Shown here: positions 23,903 to 63,867 of the stretch, in pieces
Position numbering within the stretch: position 1 is the first letter of the stretch
How the letters are laid out: each line of letters opens with the position of its first letter
Assembly (NCBI GenBank): GCA_012845835.1
Contig: JABAKD010000004.1
Span: 7,173,765-7,237,764 of the forward strand
Length of the DNA: 64,000 bases
Reading direction: 5' to 3'
DNA from: Undaria pinnatifida
Lineage: Eukaryota > Sar > Phaeophyceae > Laminariales > Alariaceae
Notes under the pieces: generated by a model
Seen by the model: the letters and a program-made list of their open reading frames with translations, nothing else
Told to the model about the DNA's origin: nothing
Databases searched by the model: none
Position numbers and translations under genes: made by a program

Positions 23903-26900
23903 CTTGAAGGCAAATCCCCGGGTAAACAAATACGTGCCCCAATCACCCAAGCCCCACTATACTTCGTAAAAAAAAAAATGGGCATACAGATCCCACCATA
24001 CCAGGTACATTTACTCGACCTATATCCTTGATGAGGACACACAACCCGTAATACGCGCGATCCGAGTATCACACAAAGCTTGCAAAGATGAGTTTCGACA
24101 AAATATTCGACCTCACAGCAGGAGTGCATCTTAATAGCAATATTATAAAAAAATGGGCATATAGATCACAGGGTAACAGGTGTACTTCGTCTGTTGTATT
24201 GTTCGTAAAGATTTTTTCTTTGTTGGGCGATGGCCGAGGGGAAAAGAAAACCACAAACGGCGGAGACGGAGCTGGTGTGCATCTCGCTCGGGGGTTATTT
24301 TATTCAGGATCACTACGCAAGACTAAAACATGGAACTAAAACTGATGAAACTAGACCAAAATTATTCAAAAAACGAATGTCGCACAAAGCAAGCCCCAGC
24401 AAAAACCACACAAAAACGAAACAAACAAAAAAAAGAAACGCTCGATCGACCCCAAGAGGCAACCGGCCACGAACGGACGAACCAACCGCGGGATGGTCCT
24501 CTCCCCGACAAAATCACTTACAAAATTATATTTTTAAGGACACCCTTCCGGTATGTTTACCTGCACTAGCCTCTCGTAGCCCAAGAACAACAGAGCGCTG
24601 GTGAGCACGGTGTGGAGTAATTTAGCCCGCATGCCTTGGTACATGCCTCCCACGCCATTATTTCGACACACCGACACCTAATGGGGAAGAGGGCGAGCGT
24701 GGGGGTGGGGGTGGGGGTTGGAGTACGGGGGGGGGGGTACCCATTTGTTGCTTGCCTTGAGCCATTTGGCCATTGACCATGCACCCCTCTCGAGACGGAG
24801 CACAGTTCCCATTCCTAGCAGAGACACCTCCAACCTTTGGACGCGGAGTAAATTTCTTCCGTTCTAAGACATGAAAATTTGTGCATCTTATGTCCTTCCT
24901 ATTTGGATATCGGTGGGGCGGGGGGGGGGGGGGGGGGGCTCATTTCTGGGAGGGGGAGGGCTCATTTCTGGGAGGGGGGGGGGGTTACTCAATATTCATG
25001 CATGGCCGTAGTCGTATGACCATAGACCCTCGCATTCCTTCTATGCCGGGACGGAGCATGTCGGGTTTTTATCGACCAGGCAGGCATTGCGTGCACCAAA
25101 CGCGGAGGGGGGGGGGGTAAGACACGGAAAGACAATTCAAGGTCGGGTGGGGTGGGGTTGTGAGGTTTGTGGGGGTTGGCGGGGGGGGGGGGGGGGGGGC
25201 AGGGGCGGTTGAATTTGGCTCCTTGGTACATATTTTACACACCGTTATCTCGATACACCGACAACTAAAGGCGACGGAAAGCGGATCCACAATGCAATGG
25301 GGGATGGGGGTGGGAATAGGGGGTGAGGATGAAAGTTAGGGTCGGTGGGGGGGGGGGAGGTAGGAGGGGTTAGGTTTTGCCCGTATGCCTTGGTGCATCC
25401 CCCCACGCCGCTACCTCGACAAACCGATACCTAAACGTATGAGAGACAGCGGAGAGGCAATGCAAGGGAGCGTGGGGGTGGGGATGGGGGGTAATGTTGT
25501 TGTTGTTGTTGTCGTTGTTGTTGTTGTTGTTGTGTGGGGAGAGGTCGAGTAGGGGGGATGCAGAGAGTTCAGGAGTAGGGTGAGGTGAGGACAATTATGG
25601 GCAACAGCAGTAACGAGACACTAGCACACACACCACCACCACCACCACCACCAGCAACAGCAACGACGCCAACACCACCAACCCCACACCGTACCCCCGA
25701 GCGGTAAAGCCCCCCCCCCCCCCCTCCCCGCGCCCCCTCGAAACCCCCACTCATCCTCTCACCAGAACATCCGCAGTACTAGACCAACACGTCAGCAGCT
25801 GCCACAGCACACCCGCTCTCCAACCCCCACCCGCCCCCTCCCCACCCCCGGCACCCCCTTCCCCTTCCTGGTCGCCTGGCACGCCAGATTTAGAACTTGA
25901 GCTTCGTCTGCAATGATCTTGCCTTGACCTCTAAGCCATCACCGTTGCCGTCCCGTAATAGAGCCGGAAACACGTGTAGATAAAAAATGAGCAAAAAAAA
26001 TGGCAGTGGAGGGGAGGGGAGGGGAGGGGAGGGGAGGGGAGGGGAGGGGAGGGGAGGGAGTAGGAGGGGGGGGTATACGAAACGGGGGGGATACGTGCAT
26101 GAGGAGAAATAAGGGGGGTGGAGGGGGGGGGGGGGTACTCATTTGTCGCTTGCGTTAGCCATTTCGACCATTGACCACGCATCCCTTTCGCGATGCAGGA
26201 CCGTATTACGTGCATGAGGAGAGGAAGTAAGGAGGGGGAGGGAGGGGGCGAGGGGGGGGGGGGGGGGGGGTTGCCCGCGGGGTGAAGAGACAGGGGGAGA
26301 ATATGCTCTGAAGAGGAGCCTGAAAGTCTGCCGTGTACTTGCCTCGAACTCTGAGCCATCGCCGTGTTGTAAGAGTTGAAACAGTGACGGGACAACAGCC
26401 GTGCAGGTGAAAGCGGATCGAAAAAAACGGGAGGGGGGGGGGGGGGGGAAGGGAGGGAGCAAAGAAGGAGACGAACAAACAAGAGACAGACGGCGACAAA
26501 GAAATAAAAACGAACACGTTGATACAATGAGCATATATAGCTCTACAAATCATTTCACAGGCGTCTCCCGAAAAGGCTTCCCCCCCCCCCGCGCCTCTCC
26601 CCCTATTTACCTGTCCCTGGCCTTGCGCGTTCCCCGCTCTCAGCCTAGCCTGTGCCAGCTGCAACGGGTACGTGATCAGGGTCGATATCGTCTTCGCCGC
26701 CGCTCCTAACAAAAATACCTCATGGCTCGGCAAACCCACGGCTGCTTGCCTCGACCCCCTCCCAGCCCCCACCCCACCACCACCACCTCCACCGCCACCC
26801 CTCCCCCCCCTTCCACCACCATCGCCTTCACAAGGTGGTGCTTGCCTGGTCCTTCTGCTATGGCGGTTACCCGCAGCTTGCTTGAGAGTTTCGTATACAA

Positions 26901-29900
26901 CAAACTGTATAATGGGGTTGGAAACCAGCACTAAAGATGGAGCTGCCCCGGACCAAAGCCCCGCCAATCCCTCATTACTGACCCCCCCGCAGACAAGCGC
27001 CACCGTGCGTAGCACGTTTGGTGTGATGTACAGTAGCATACGTGGAGTGAGCGCGGGTGGGGGGGGGGGGGGGGGGGAAGAGAGAAGGGAGAGGGGGGGG
27101 CAAGATGGGAAAGGGAGAGGAGAAGGGCGAGGAGTGAGTGAGGGGGCGGGGAAGAGATAGCCGGAGATAAGAGGAACAATGGCGGGTAAATGTGAGGAGG
27201 GGGAGGGGAGAGGAAGGGGGTAGAGTGGGGGGACGAGAGGGAAATCGGCATCAAGTGAGCGAGAAAATAGTTGCACGTGTGGAAAGCCGGGGCTTCGTTC
27301 GGGTGTACTATCATTTGACACCGTCGGAGGTGGAAGTGTGAGGAAACTGTAATACGTAGCTTCGAAGAAGGTTGGCTGTGCCATCTATTCGGCTGGGAGC
27401 TTGCCGGGCTTGACGGCAAAGTGTACTAGTCGGGCGGTGACCTAAGTCAACCAACTGTCCTTAGTCTCTCTCGATATATATTGTGAAATTAAAATACACT
27501 CCAGCTGTGAGATCGAATATTTCGTCGAAACTCATCTTTGCAAGCTGTGTGTGATACTCCGATCGCGCGAATATATATACCATCTCGGGCCACAAACGCA
27601 CCAGCTAGAGACAAAAACATATCGGTCCGACTGAACATATGAACCCGATACGTATGAACAAAAAAAACGTAACTTCGATGCGGAATAGAGGCCATGCAGT
27701 ACTGCGATCTTAAAACCCAAGACTCGTTCACAATCGTATCACCACACAGATAGATGAAAGGATTGAAGCACCCCATTGGTTGATCCGGGGACGCTCGTTT
27801 ATCACCCCCTCCCTAAGATCTCGAAGTTTCGGATATTGTCCAGAAGCATTGTTCATATCGAGCATTTATTTACCGTCGGACTGGCATATCTTGACAATTT
27901 ACCGCCGGAACAAACTCTACTTCTGCTAATAATAATTTTGTCCCCCTCAGAAACGGGTTTTATAGTTTCAGCGCACAGACTGACTAAAATCACCCTGTTG
28001 ACCCTGATAGCTACACTGTAGTTGTAAGGGGAGTCGCCGACCTATATCCTTCATGAGGACACACAACTCGTAGTGCGCGCGATCGAAGTATCACACACAG
28101 CTTGCAAAGATGAGTTTCGACGAAATCTTCGATCTCACAGCTGGAGTGTATTTTCATTTTTTATAATAATAACAACAACAACAACAACAACAACAACAAC
28201 AATAATAATAATAATAATACTAATAATAATAATAATAATAATAATAATAATAATAATAATAATAATAATAATAATAATAATAATAATAATAATAATAATA
28301 ATAATAATAATAATAATAATAATAATAATAATAATAATAATAATAATAACAATTAATAATAACAATAATAATAATACCAAGCCAACATGTAGCTAGTCGG
28401 CGACTTCATAGCTAGCCAAATCAACTTCCCTACCCTACCAGCATGGCCATTCTTTCTGCATCTGGGGGGCATTCACTGTTCGTCCAACACTACACATCAT
28501 GTCATGCATCACACCGTTTCAGCCACCAACGACGAGGAGGGGGGAGGGGGAGGGCCATGCAGGAGGGCCATACATGCGGTACCAGAATAACGGCCTCTTT
28601 GGGCTCGTCAAGGGAAACATTTTTCCACGAAAACCGAGGAGCATAAAAATCTGAAAAGTGGAAATGCCAAACCCTAGTGCGCGATGAAACTGAGAGCAAG
28701 TACCGGGGGGGGGGGGGGGGGAAGGGAAGCCACCTGCGACCACAGTAGTTTATCCAGAAGGTCGCTGAGGGCAAAACCTCTTACGGCTTGAGCTGGAGAG
28801 TAAAAATAAAAACAATAATAATAATAATAATAATAATAATAATAATAATAATAATAATAATAATGATAATAATAATAATAATAATAATAATAATAATAAT
28901 AATAATAATAATAATAATAATAATAATAATAATAATAATAATAATAATAATAATAATAATAATAACAATAATAACATACCAGGCCGAGTCCAAGTATAAG
29001 CCACCTTTGGGCGTGCCTGCATTGCAACAAAGTGGCTCACATTTGGACCCAGACTGGCGTATTAATAATTATACGTGTAAGGAGCGATCATTCAACGGGT
29101 CTGCTGGTGTTTAAAGGCTAGTTTAAGGCTAGGGGGGCGGTTAGTCGCGCTCCATCTCGTATCTCCCATGTTTTCCCGGTCGTTACAAAACCCGACGTAA
29201 CCCCGGCATCGTAGGGATGCGAGGGTCTATGCTCCCAAGACCACGTCCACGCACAGCACGACTAGACCCCCACCGCTGTTTCAACCGCCCCTCCGCCCTC
29301 CCCGCCTGCGGATACCGTACAAACTCCTCACCTCCCAATCGAAGCAAGCGTAGAAAACAGACCCCCAACCCCGTGCCCCGCCTTAATTCGCAGATTGGAA
29401 ACCCAAAGCGGCGTCGTCGCCATCACGTTGACCACCCCCGCTATCGTCGACGCTATTACACTCTCCAGAGGCGTAAGCCCTTCCACCCCCCCCCGCGCCC
29501 CCGCCCCGCCCCCCGCCCCTCCCACCACTTCTCTCGCCCCAGCCTTCCCGATACCCTCCGCCAACCCCACCCCCACCTTCACCCCCGTCCCTGCCCCCGC
29601 CCCTGCCCGCATAGCTCCGCCTGCTACGGTGGCAGCAACCCGCGCACTGCTGCTTGCCAATGTTGACGCTGTTGCTGCTGCTGCTGCTATGGTGGCTGGG
29701 ACCACTCGTGATCTGCGGGCCAGAAGGAGGCGTCGCCTGGCGAGCAAGGCTGCCTGCGTTGTTATTTTGGGTTGGGTTTTGACGGATTGGGAGCGTGGCA
29801 GGGTGGGGTTTGGTGCGGGTTGGGGAAGCGTGTGTAGTTTGGAGGGAAGGGGGGGGGAGTATGCGTACGGGGCATGCTTGCATTGACAAATTTGGTCGCC

Positions 29901-63667: not shown

Positions 63668-63805
63668 CTGACAAAAGAGGGGGGGAAAAACAAGAACAAA
63701 CAAGAATAAACCACCGCAAAAGCAAACCGATCCATAAGACCAGGACAAAACACAAACATAGCAGCGTACACAACACAACGAAGACACAAAAACGAGAAAC
63801 ACACC

Positions 63806-63867
63806 AGGCACGGCTCGTGCTCTCCAGGAAACCCGGTGCTGTGTATGGAGCGTATTGTTCGATAACC
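63806..63867 (-). pseudogene. Copy of the 5' end of the first visible GT2 exon
   Basis: In the minus sense, TCTATTTCTCAG is followed by a frame VIEQYAPYTAPGFLE that parallels FIGRYATYTGPGFQE; about 46 of 62 bases agree, including the acceptor. It lies exactly 200 bp upstream of the true exon start and lacks the KYAYG half. Confidence 0.8.

Follow-up and report, generated by a model that had tools for sequence, protein, structure and literature searches.

Genes and exon copies at the locus

The DNA analysed is a stretch of 64,000 nucleotides of Undaria pinnatifida (GCA_012845835.1, contig JABAKD010000004.1, positions 7,173,765-7,237,764 of the forward strand), referred to as the window, and the features considered belong to two genes, a carrier gene and a GT2 gene, both on the minus strand. 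The carrier exons match the Pfam family Mito_carr, and exon 2 appears, from its sequence, to end at a GC donor (AAG/GCAAAA). In the GT2 gene, three of the nine stretches scanned match Glyco_trans_2_3, namely the exon at 63535-63667, the exon next upstream of it (E 3e-8, over the curated cut-off), and a third stretch further upstream (E 0.0037, under the cut-off). The remaining stretches of the nine, including that at 59670-59886, gave no family match, with one weak hit to DUF6404 (E 0.19), and their assignment to the GT2 gene is therefore based on strand, position, and an open frame.

The preliminary description reported partial self-copies at four exons of these two genes. Local alignment of each exon against its own surroundings located and scored the copies (Table 1), and all of them were recovered, in direct orientation and above all control tiles. 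Each exon was aligned against 80 control tile-strands, for which the maximum score was 23-29 across the four exons; the weakest copy, at 59408-59444, compares with a control maximum of 28. Inverted matches within the 2-kb flanks of the four exons scored at most 25. Among the step sizes first given, those of 193, 188, 200, and 587 bp were reproduced, whereas 167, 278, and 149 bp were measured in place of 166, 274, and 139 bp. Clear junction copies occur at 5 of the 14 exons or putative exons of the carrier and GT2 genes, the fifth being a GT2 exon just beyond the window end (window-equivalent 64521-64632) with three copies. Two further carrier segments, 29386-29482 and 26800-27050, were considered as copied exons and left uncounted, since their matches consist only of poly-G/C or GGT-like sequence, with inverted scores of up to 40.

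Table 1. Source exons in the carrier and GT2 genes and the copies of their ends (window positions)
Feature	Position	Strand	Remarks
Carrier exon 2, source of 3'-end copies	30693..30869	-	Mito_carr; putative boundaries, read from sequence
Copy A, carrier exon 2 3' end and donor side, downstream	30420..30584	-	Score 137; donor GT
Copy B, carrier exon 2 3' end and donor side, downstream	30256..30394	-	Score 136; donor GC
Copy C, carrier exon 2 3' end, downstream	30162..30208	-	Score 54; donor GT
Carrier exon 6, last exon, source of 5'-end copies	24561..24647	-	Mito_carr; boundaries approximate
Copy of carrier exon 6 acceptor side and exon start, upstream	25221..25274	-	Score 48
Second copy of carrier exon 6 acceptor side and exon start, upstream	25375..25434	-	Score 64
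GT2 gene exon, both ends copied	59670..59886	-	Open frame; without own Pfam match
5'-end copy of GT2 exon 59670-59886, upstream	60095..60162	-	Score 58
3'-end copy of GT2 exon 59670-59886, downstream	59408..59444	-	Score 34; donor not reached
GT2 gene exon, Glyco_trans_2_3 part	63535..63667	-	E 0.0034, below curated cut-off
5'-end copy of GT2 exon 63535-63667, upstream	63805..63875	-	Score 52; acceptor TCAG kept

Exons and random segments in a genomic sample

The comparison was extended to 94 exon matches of the carrier, kinesin, and ABC families, lying in 63 regions of 218 kb on 21 contigs of this one genome, and to 40,000 random pseudo-exons from the same regions, some of which may overlap unrecognised exons. 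The sampled loci are the top-scoring matches of each family, so that long exons are over-represented. L054, a near-identical gene copy of L053, was left out, as were L035-L040, which lie on the small and presumably bacterial contigs C45, C49, and C50. Exon ends were taken from HMM matches, and 14 of the 18 exon-copy alignments cross the match end within 3 bp, while the other 4 stop 10-30 bp inside it. Apparent copies at L020, L028, L043, L045, and L080 consist of low-complexity sequence (poly-G, GGT, TTGG, and similar) and were masked out. A single inverted match scored above 34 before masking (L053, score 36), under the control maximum of 44 for that locus. The match between L007 and L017 arises from their both belonging to one 330-aa carrier ORF, of which they are separate stretches.

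Flanking self-copies accompany 10 of the 94 exon matches and form 18 pairs, unevenly distributed among kinesin (6/41), carrier (2/41), and ABC (2/12) matches. The pattern is thus not peculiar to the region in which it was noticed. The order described at the locus, with 5'-end copies upstream and 3'-end copies downstream, held in all 18 exon-overlapping pairs, every one of them direct, as tandem duplication of a segment with one end in the exon and the other in the intron would produce; inverted or wrong-side copies, which would speak against that origin if equally frequent, were not so in this sample. Among pseudo-exon pairs that do not touch the segment twice, the expected side was found in 2450 of 3810. 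Wrong-side copies were absent from the 94 exons but present at 5.7% of pseudo-exons, and internal copies were likewise found at none of the 94 exons and at 4.7% of pseudo-exons. If units with the observed spacings (50-600 bp) were placed at random, 72% of duplications would be expected to span a junction, 18% to lie within the exon, and 10% to take in the entire exon.

Properties of the local duplications

Local pairs in the 63 regions of 218 kb are overwhelmingly direct (101 direct vs. 7 inverted, with matches having less than 300 bp of flank excluded and overlapping loci merged). Of the four pairs of at least 40 bp with the highest identity, three sit back to back, which also backs a tandem origin: L018 (99% identity, 122 bp aligned, spacing 118), L077 (98%, 66 bp, spacing 65), and L014 (96%, 75 bp, spacing 71.5). 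The fourth, L078 (96%, 56 bp at spacing 136), is not adjacent. At 75 to 90% identity the median ratio of length to spacing is about 0.3, many pairs being much shorter than their spacing, which we read as the probable outcome of decay and later indels. Spacings fall within 50-300 bp in 98 of 161 direct pairs; their distribution is broad over this range and has no sharp peak, so that neither the step of about 140-200 bp originally noted nor a nucleosome-sized step is retained. The exon copies decay in a non-coding manner, with mismatches of 12.9, 17.8, and 24.8% at codon positions 1, 2, and 3, and with indels of 1 bp in 10 of 10 cases.

Origin of the copies

A background of short tandem duplications combined with purifying selection very probably explains the copies at exon edges. 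On this view, introns, intergenic DNA, and exon edges would all acquire short local tandem duplications, the unit measuring about 50-300 bp in most cases. With a unit lying across an acceptor, the copy nearer the exon would retain the whole exon and the distal copy would stay upstream as an acceptor with the exon start; with a unit lying across a donor, the spare copy would stay downstream as the exon end with its donor. A duplication with both breakpoints within the exon would damage the protein and be lost, and a wrong-side copy could not arise from a single tandem event unless the exon were broken. The order of the copies would hence follow from the geometry of tandem duplication and the loss of exon-breaking alleles, with selection likely acting as the filter. 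The spare copies would then be free of coding constraint, with splice sites often recognisable for some time, and open to repeated duplication. They are presumably not spliced, and the molecular process may be replication slippage or end joining.

Among the alternatives, a duplication process drawn to splice junctions, or to transcription and splicing, and hence favouring exon ends seems unlikely, although the pattern does occur in several unrelated genes. A junction-specific process, as had been proposed for this region, finds little room in the rates: junction-only copies occur at 10.6% of exons (10/94) and at 9.0% of random pseudo-exons, and this near-equality holds even though exon-intron pairs are expected to remain detectable longer, one side being constrained. 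Direct duplications cover 4.2% of exon bases and 4.8% of bases outside exons, and 85 of the 104 direct pairs within 1.5 kb leave the family exon untouched (overlapping loci counted separately and low complexity masked in both figures). In the sampled regions, exon junctions are not special as duplication sites. What favours targeting is the excess of exons copied at both ends, of which three were observed against about 0.45 expected from independent events (Fisher p=0.005); this excess counts against the model of background duplication, which leaves it unexplained. Other duplications are only slightly more frequent in regions with exon copies than in the other regions (0.50 vs. 0.36 pairs per kb, p=0.06), a difference too small to demonstrate local proneness. 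In the both-ended exons the 5' and 3' copied parts are disjoint, but by hand arithmetic the fragment lengths make random overlap almost nil, so that disjointness is uninformative on whether a copy was inserted inside an original exon.

The copies might also be remnants or members of mutually exclusive exons, or alternative splice sites still in use, a reading that we consider very improbable. Some copies keep an open frame, GT or AG was seen by eye at the aligned splice site in 15 of 22 evaluable copies, and mismatches are highest at third codon positions; moreover, the upstream match of a putative GT2-gene exon at about 71760-71885 (window-equivalent) covers the whole assumed exon and is a possible exception. 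The copies nonetheless hold one exon end only and are thus incomplete as exons, and none of the 94 exons has a copy covering at least 90% of its match. All ten indels shift the frame, 13-18% of first and second codon positions are changed, and the mild third-position excess is that expected for a neutral copy next to a constrained exon. Judged by their sequence, the copies do not look like alternative exons.

Least probable is carriage by transposable or introner-like elements, or an origin as retrocopy fragments. The introns do hold dispersed repeats, among them a family of 120 bp for which 40 of 899 candidate places were scored. For two exons, however, the copied sequence extends into the intron flanking the exon itself, and the sampled copies lie near their source in a single orientation. 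Two exon-region searches returned only the own locus, a result sensitive to fairly young dispersed copies only, as the adjacent copies of about 75% identity were also missed.

Background duplication filtered by selection, the preferred reading, reduces a striking pattern to a general mutational process, with a control that separates the two components. A bolder extension can be offered tentatively: local tandem duplication might be so frequent that about one in ten conserved exons carries a recognisable decoy splice-junction copy, some exons being hotspots copied repeatedly at both ends, and junction duplication could continually furnish alternative 5' and 3' splice sites and lengthen introns to a measurable extent. 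If the rate of about one in ten holds genome-wide, tandem duplication could be read from the introns of this organism as a record with its own polarity, and the copies would be natural decoys, with RNA-seq able to measure whether the spliceosome uses or ignores them.

Relation to known systems

Junction-only tandem duplicates in introns were the subject of no title among the matches listed, most subscription journals lying outside the coverage. Internal gene duplication, reportedly treated by Gao and Lynch in 2009, comes close in that local tandem (segmental) duplication, like that found here, is direct, local, back to back when young, and spread over many genes, its units measuring upwards of roughly a hundred bases. 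It differs in that the unit here extends across a splice junction already present and its spare piece comes to lie in the intron, so that neither the protein nor the intron number need change.

Exon shuffling has been described in brown algal ROCO genes (PMC11378527). In intron gain by tandem genomic duplication, an AGGT-bearing exonic segment is doubled and a new intron lies between the copies (PMC3443670). The resemblance to that process lies in the tandem duplication of a segment with splice-site sequence, and the difference in that here, to judge from the geometry, an existing intron would be lengthened and gain decoy sites (PMC3443670). Mutually exclusive exons derived from tandem exon duplication involve whole exons with both splice sites and under coding constraint (PMC6071210). 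As in that case, exon sequence is duplicated here along with adjacent intron, but the copies comprise one exon end only and are decaying (PMC6071210).

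Junction copies in the carrier and GT2 genes

Partial copies of exon ends lying beside the exons themselves are a true observation, and they recur in sampled regions across the genome. The two genes concerned are both located on the minus strand, in a window (C48:7173765-7237764) with a GC content of roughly 50%. The exons of the carrier gene match Mito_carr (Pfam). In the GT2 gene, 9 stretches were scanned; 3 gave a match to Glyco_trans_2_3, and in one case the match exceeded the curated cut-off. All of the copies named in the preliminary description were recovered by local alignment, with scores of 34–137 versus a maximum of 23–29 in 80 control tile-strands per exon, and inverted matches in the own flanks of the four window exons scored 25 or less. 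Among the exons and putative exons examined across both genes (14), 5 had clear junction copies; the sample was picked by the finding and, as such, gives no estimate of rate. A putative GT2-gene exon past the window end (L003, ~1760-2160; window-equivalent 71760-72160) is matched upstream along the entire length assumed for it, with a spacing of ~246 bp.

Exons with junction copies and other repeats in the window (window-equivalent numbering continues past the window end)
Feature	Position	Copies or description
Carrier exon 2	30693-30869	three downstream 3'-end copies: A, 30420-30584; B, 30256-30394; C, 30162-30208
Carrier exon 6 (last)	~24561-24647	two upstream 5'-end copies: 25221-25274; 25375-25434
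GT2 exon	59670-59886	one 5'-end copy, 60095-60162; one 3'-end copy, 59408-59444
GT2 exon	63535-63667	one upstream 5'-end copy: 63805-63875
GT2 exon, just past the window	64521-64632 (window-equivalent)	one upstream 5' copy; two downstream 3' copies
Dispersed repeat, ~120 bp	62716-62850	beside G-runs; introns of both genes
Inverted repeat, 84 bp	27486-27569 and 28076-28159	96% identity
Palindrome-like stretch, ~900 bp	8857-9753	84% identity to own reverse complement

For the dispersed repeat, 40 of 899 candidate places in the genome were scored, itself included, all with at least 84% identity, and related stretches were seen by eye near 24713-24806, 26113-26204, 59087-59145, and 59234-59292. 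The inverted repeat resembles the two arms of some small transposon; similar stretches were noticed by eye near 24060-24130 and 31420-31560, close to both ends of the stretch of carrier exons.

Order and orientation across the genome

Searches of the assembly (511,146,479 bases, 68 contigs) by family found 119 places for Mito_carr, 130 for kinesin, and 18 for ABC; 78 of these 267 were taken with 1.5 kb of DNA per side. Seven loci were left out, one as a near-identical gene copy and six on small contigs presumed bacterial, and the remaining 71 loci, once overlaps were merged, formed 63 regions of 218,479 bases on 21 contigs. All exon matches flanked by 300 bp or more were counted, 94 in total; the loci are the best-scoring matches, hence with longer exons.

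Within 1.5 kb, the 71 loci contained 104 direct local pairs (19 in contact with the exon of the family) and 4 inverted pairs that all lay clear of it; within 2 kb, the 63 regions contained 101 direct versus 7 inverted pairs. Ten exons had copies (kinesin, 6 of 41 matches; carrier, 2 of 41; ABC, 2 of 12), forming 18 pairs, and the order proposed earlier, with 5' parts upstream and 3' parts downstream, held in all 18. Exon ends are here the ends of HMM matches; 14 of the 18 alignments cross such an end and 4 stop 10–30 bp inside the match.

Probable tandem origin of the copies

Among pairs of at least 40 bp, the four highest in similarity include three that lie exactly back to back: L018, the most similar of all (99% identity, unit of 118 bp), L077 (65 bp), and L014 (~72 bp). 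The fourth, L078, is 56 bp long, with a spacing of 136. The pair at L014 arose by a recent second duplication inside the tract that carries the two upstream 5' copies of the exon of that locus. In older pairs, the length is mostly below the spacing, a shortfall that decay would produce. When the genome was searched for dispersed copies, carrier exon 2 together with its copies and a GT2 exon each matched their own locus only; the known local copies, ~75% identical, were missed as well, so that the result weighs only against dispersed copies of fairly recent age. Tandem duplication is well supported by the excess of direct pairs, the invariant order, and the back-to-back position of most pairs of highest similarity.

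Three exons (L014, L031, and L068) are accompanied by copies of their 5' as well as their 3' end, versus ~0.45 expected by independent events (p=0.005). Other duplications are only slightly more frequent in regions with exon copies (p=0.06), and a local proneness to duplication would be the likely cause of the both-ended excess.

Exon junctions and the duplication background

The preliminary description proposed a special junction-only process common to genes of one region. This proposal is not sustained, as junction-only copies occur at 10 of 94 exons (10.6%) and at 9.0% of 40,000 pseudo-exons, that is, exon-length segments placed at random in the same regions outside matches, where pairs decay on both sides and are detectable for a shorter time than exon-intron pairs; moreover, the copies recur in the regions sampled from 21 contigs. 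Whole copies (0.14%), wrong-side copies (5.7%), and internal duplications (4.7%) are found in pseudo-exons and in none of the 94 exons. Exons therefore undergo duplication about as often as the background, and the wrong-side and internal classes that they lack are exactly those that would harm them. When units of the observed spacing (50–600 bp, median 212) were dropped in simulation on exons of observed lengths, 72% of events spanned a junction, 18% fell inside the exon, and 10% covered the whole exon; therefore, most duplications would be expected to leave junction-only copies even if no special mechanism operated.

Mismatches and splice sites in the copies

Where the 18 pairs derive from exons, mismatches numbered 43/333, 60/337, and 82/331 at the first, second, and third codon positions, respectively, and all ten indels were single-base. 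Such a pattern would be expected if the copy evolves neutrally next to an exon under constraint, and not if it were maintained as an alternative exon. By eye, 15 of 22 evaluable copies (carrier copy B set aside) still have AG or GT where the junction aligns, which is about the chance expectation at about 80% identity per base, so that decoy sites show no sign of being either retained or purged. The likely donor of carrier exon 2 (window 30693) is GC (AAG|GCAAAA by eye), with GT there in two of its three decayed copies, and the kinesin exon of L077 seemingly has a GC donor too (AAG|GCGAGT, by eye).

Relation to known processes

It is accepted that new introns can arise by tandem genomic duplication (PMC3443670), and duplication of an exon with adjacent intron is held to yield mutually exclusive exons (PMC6071210). 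Among the titles listed in full-text literature searches, none was on a spare half-junction decaying in an existing intron, which is weak evidence of novelty. The mutational process here is shared with both cases, but the outcome differs: instead of a new intron or mutually exclusive exons, the spare half-junction stays in the existing intron and decays.
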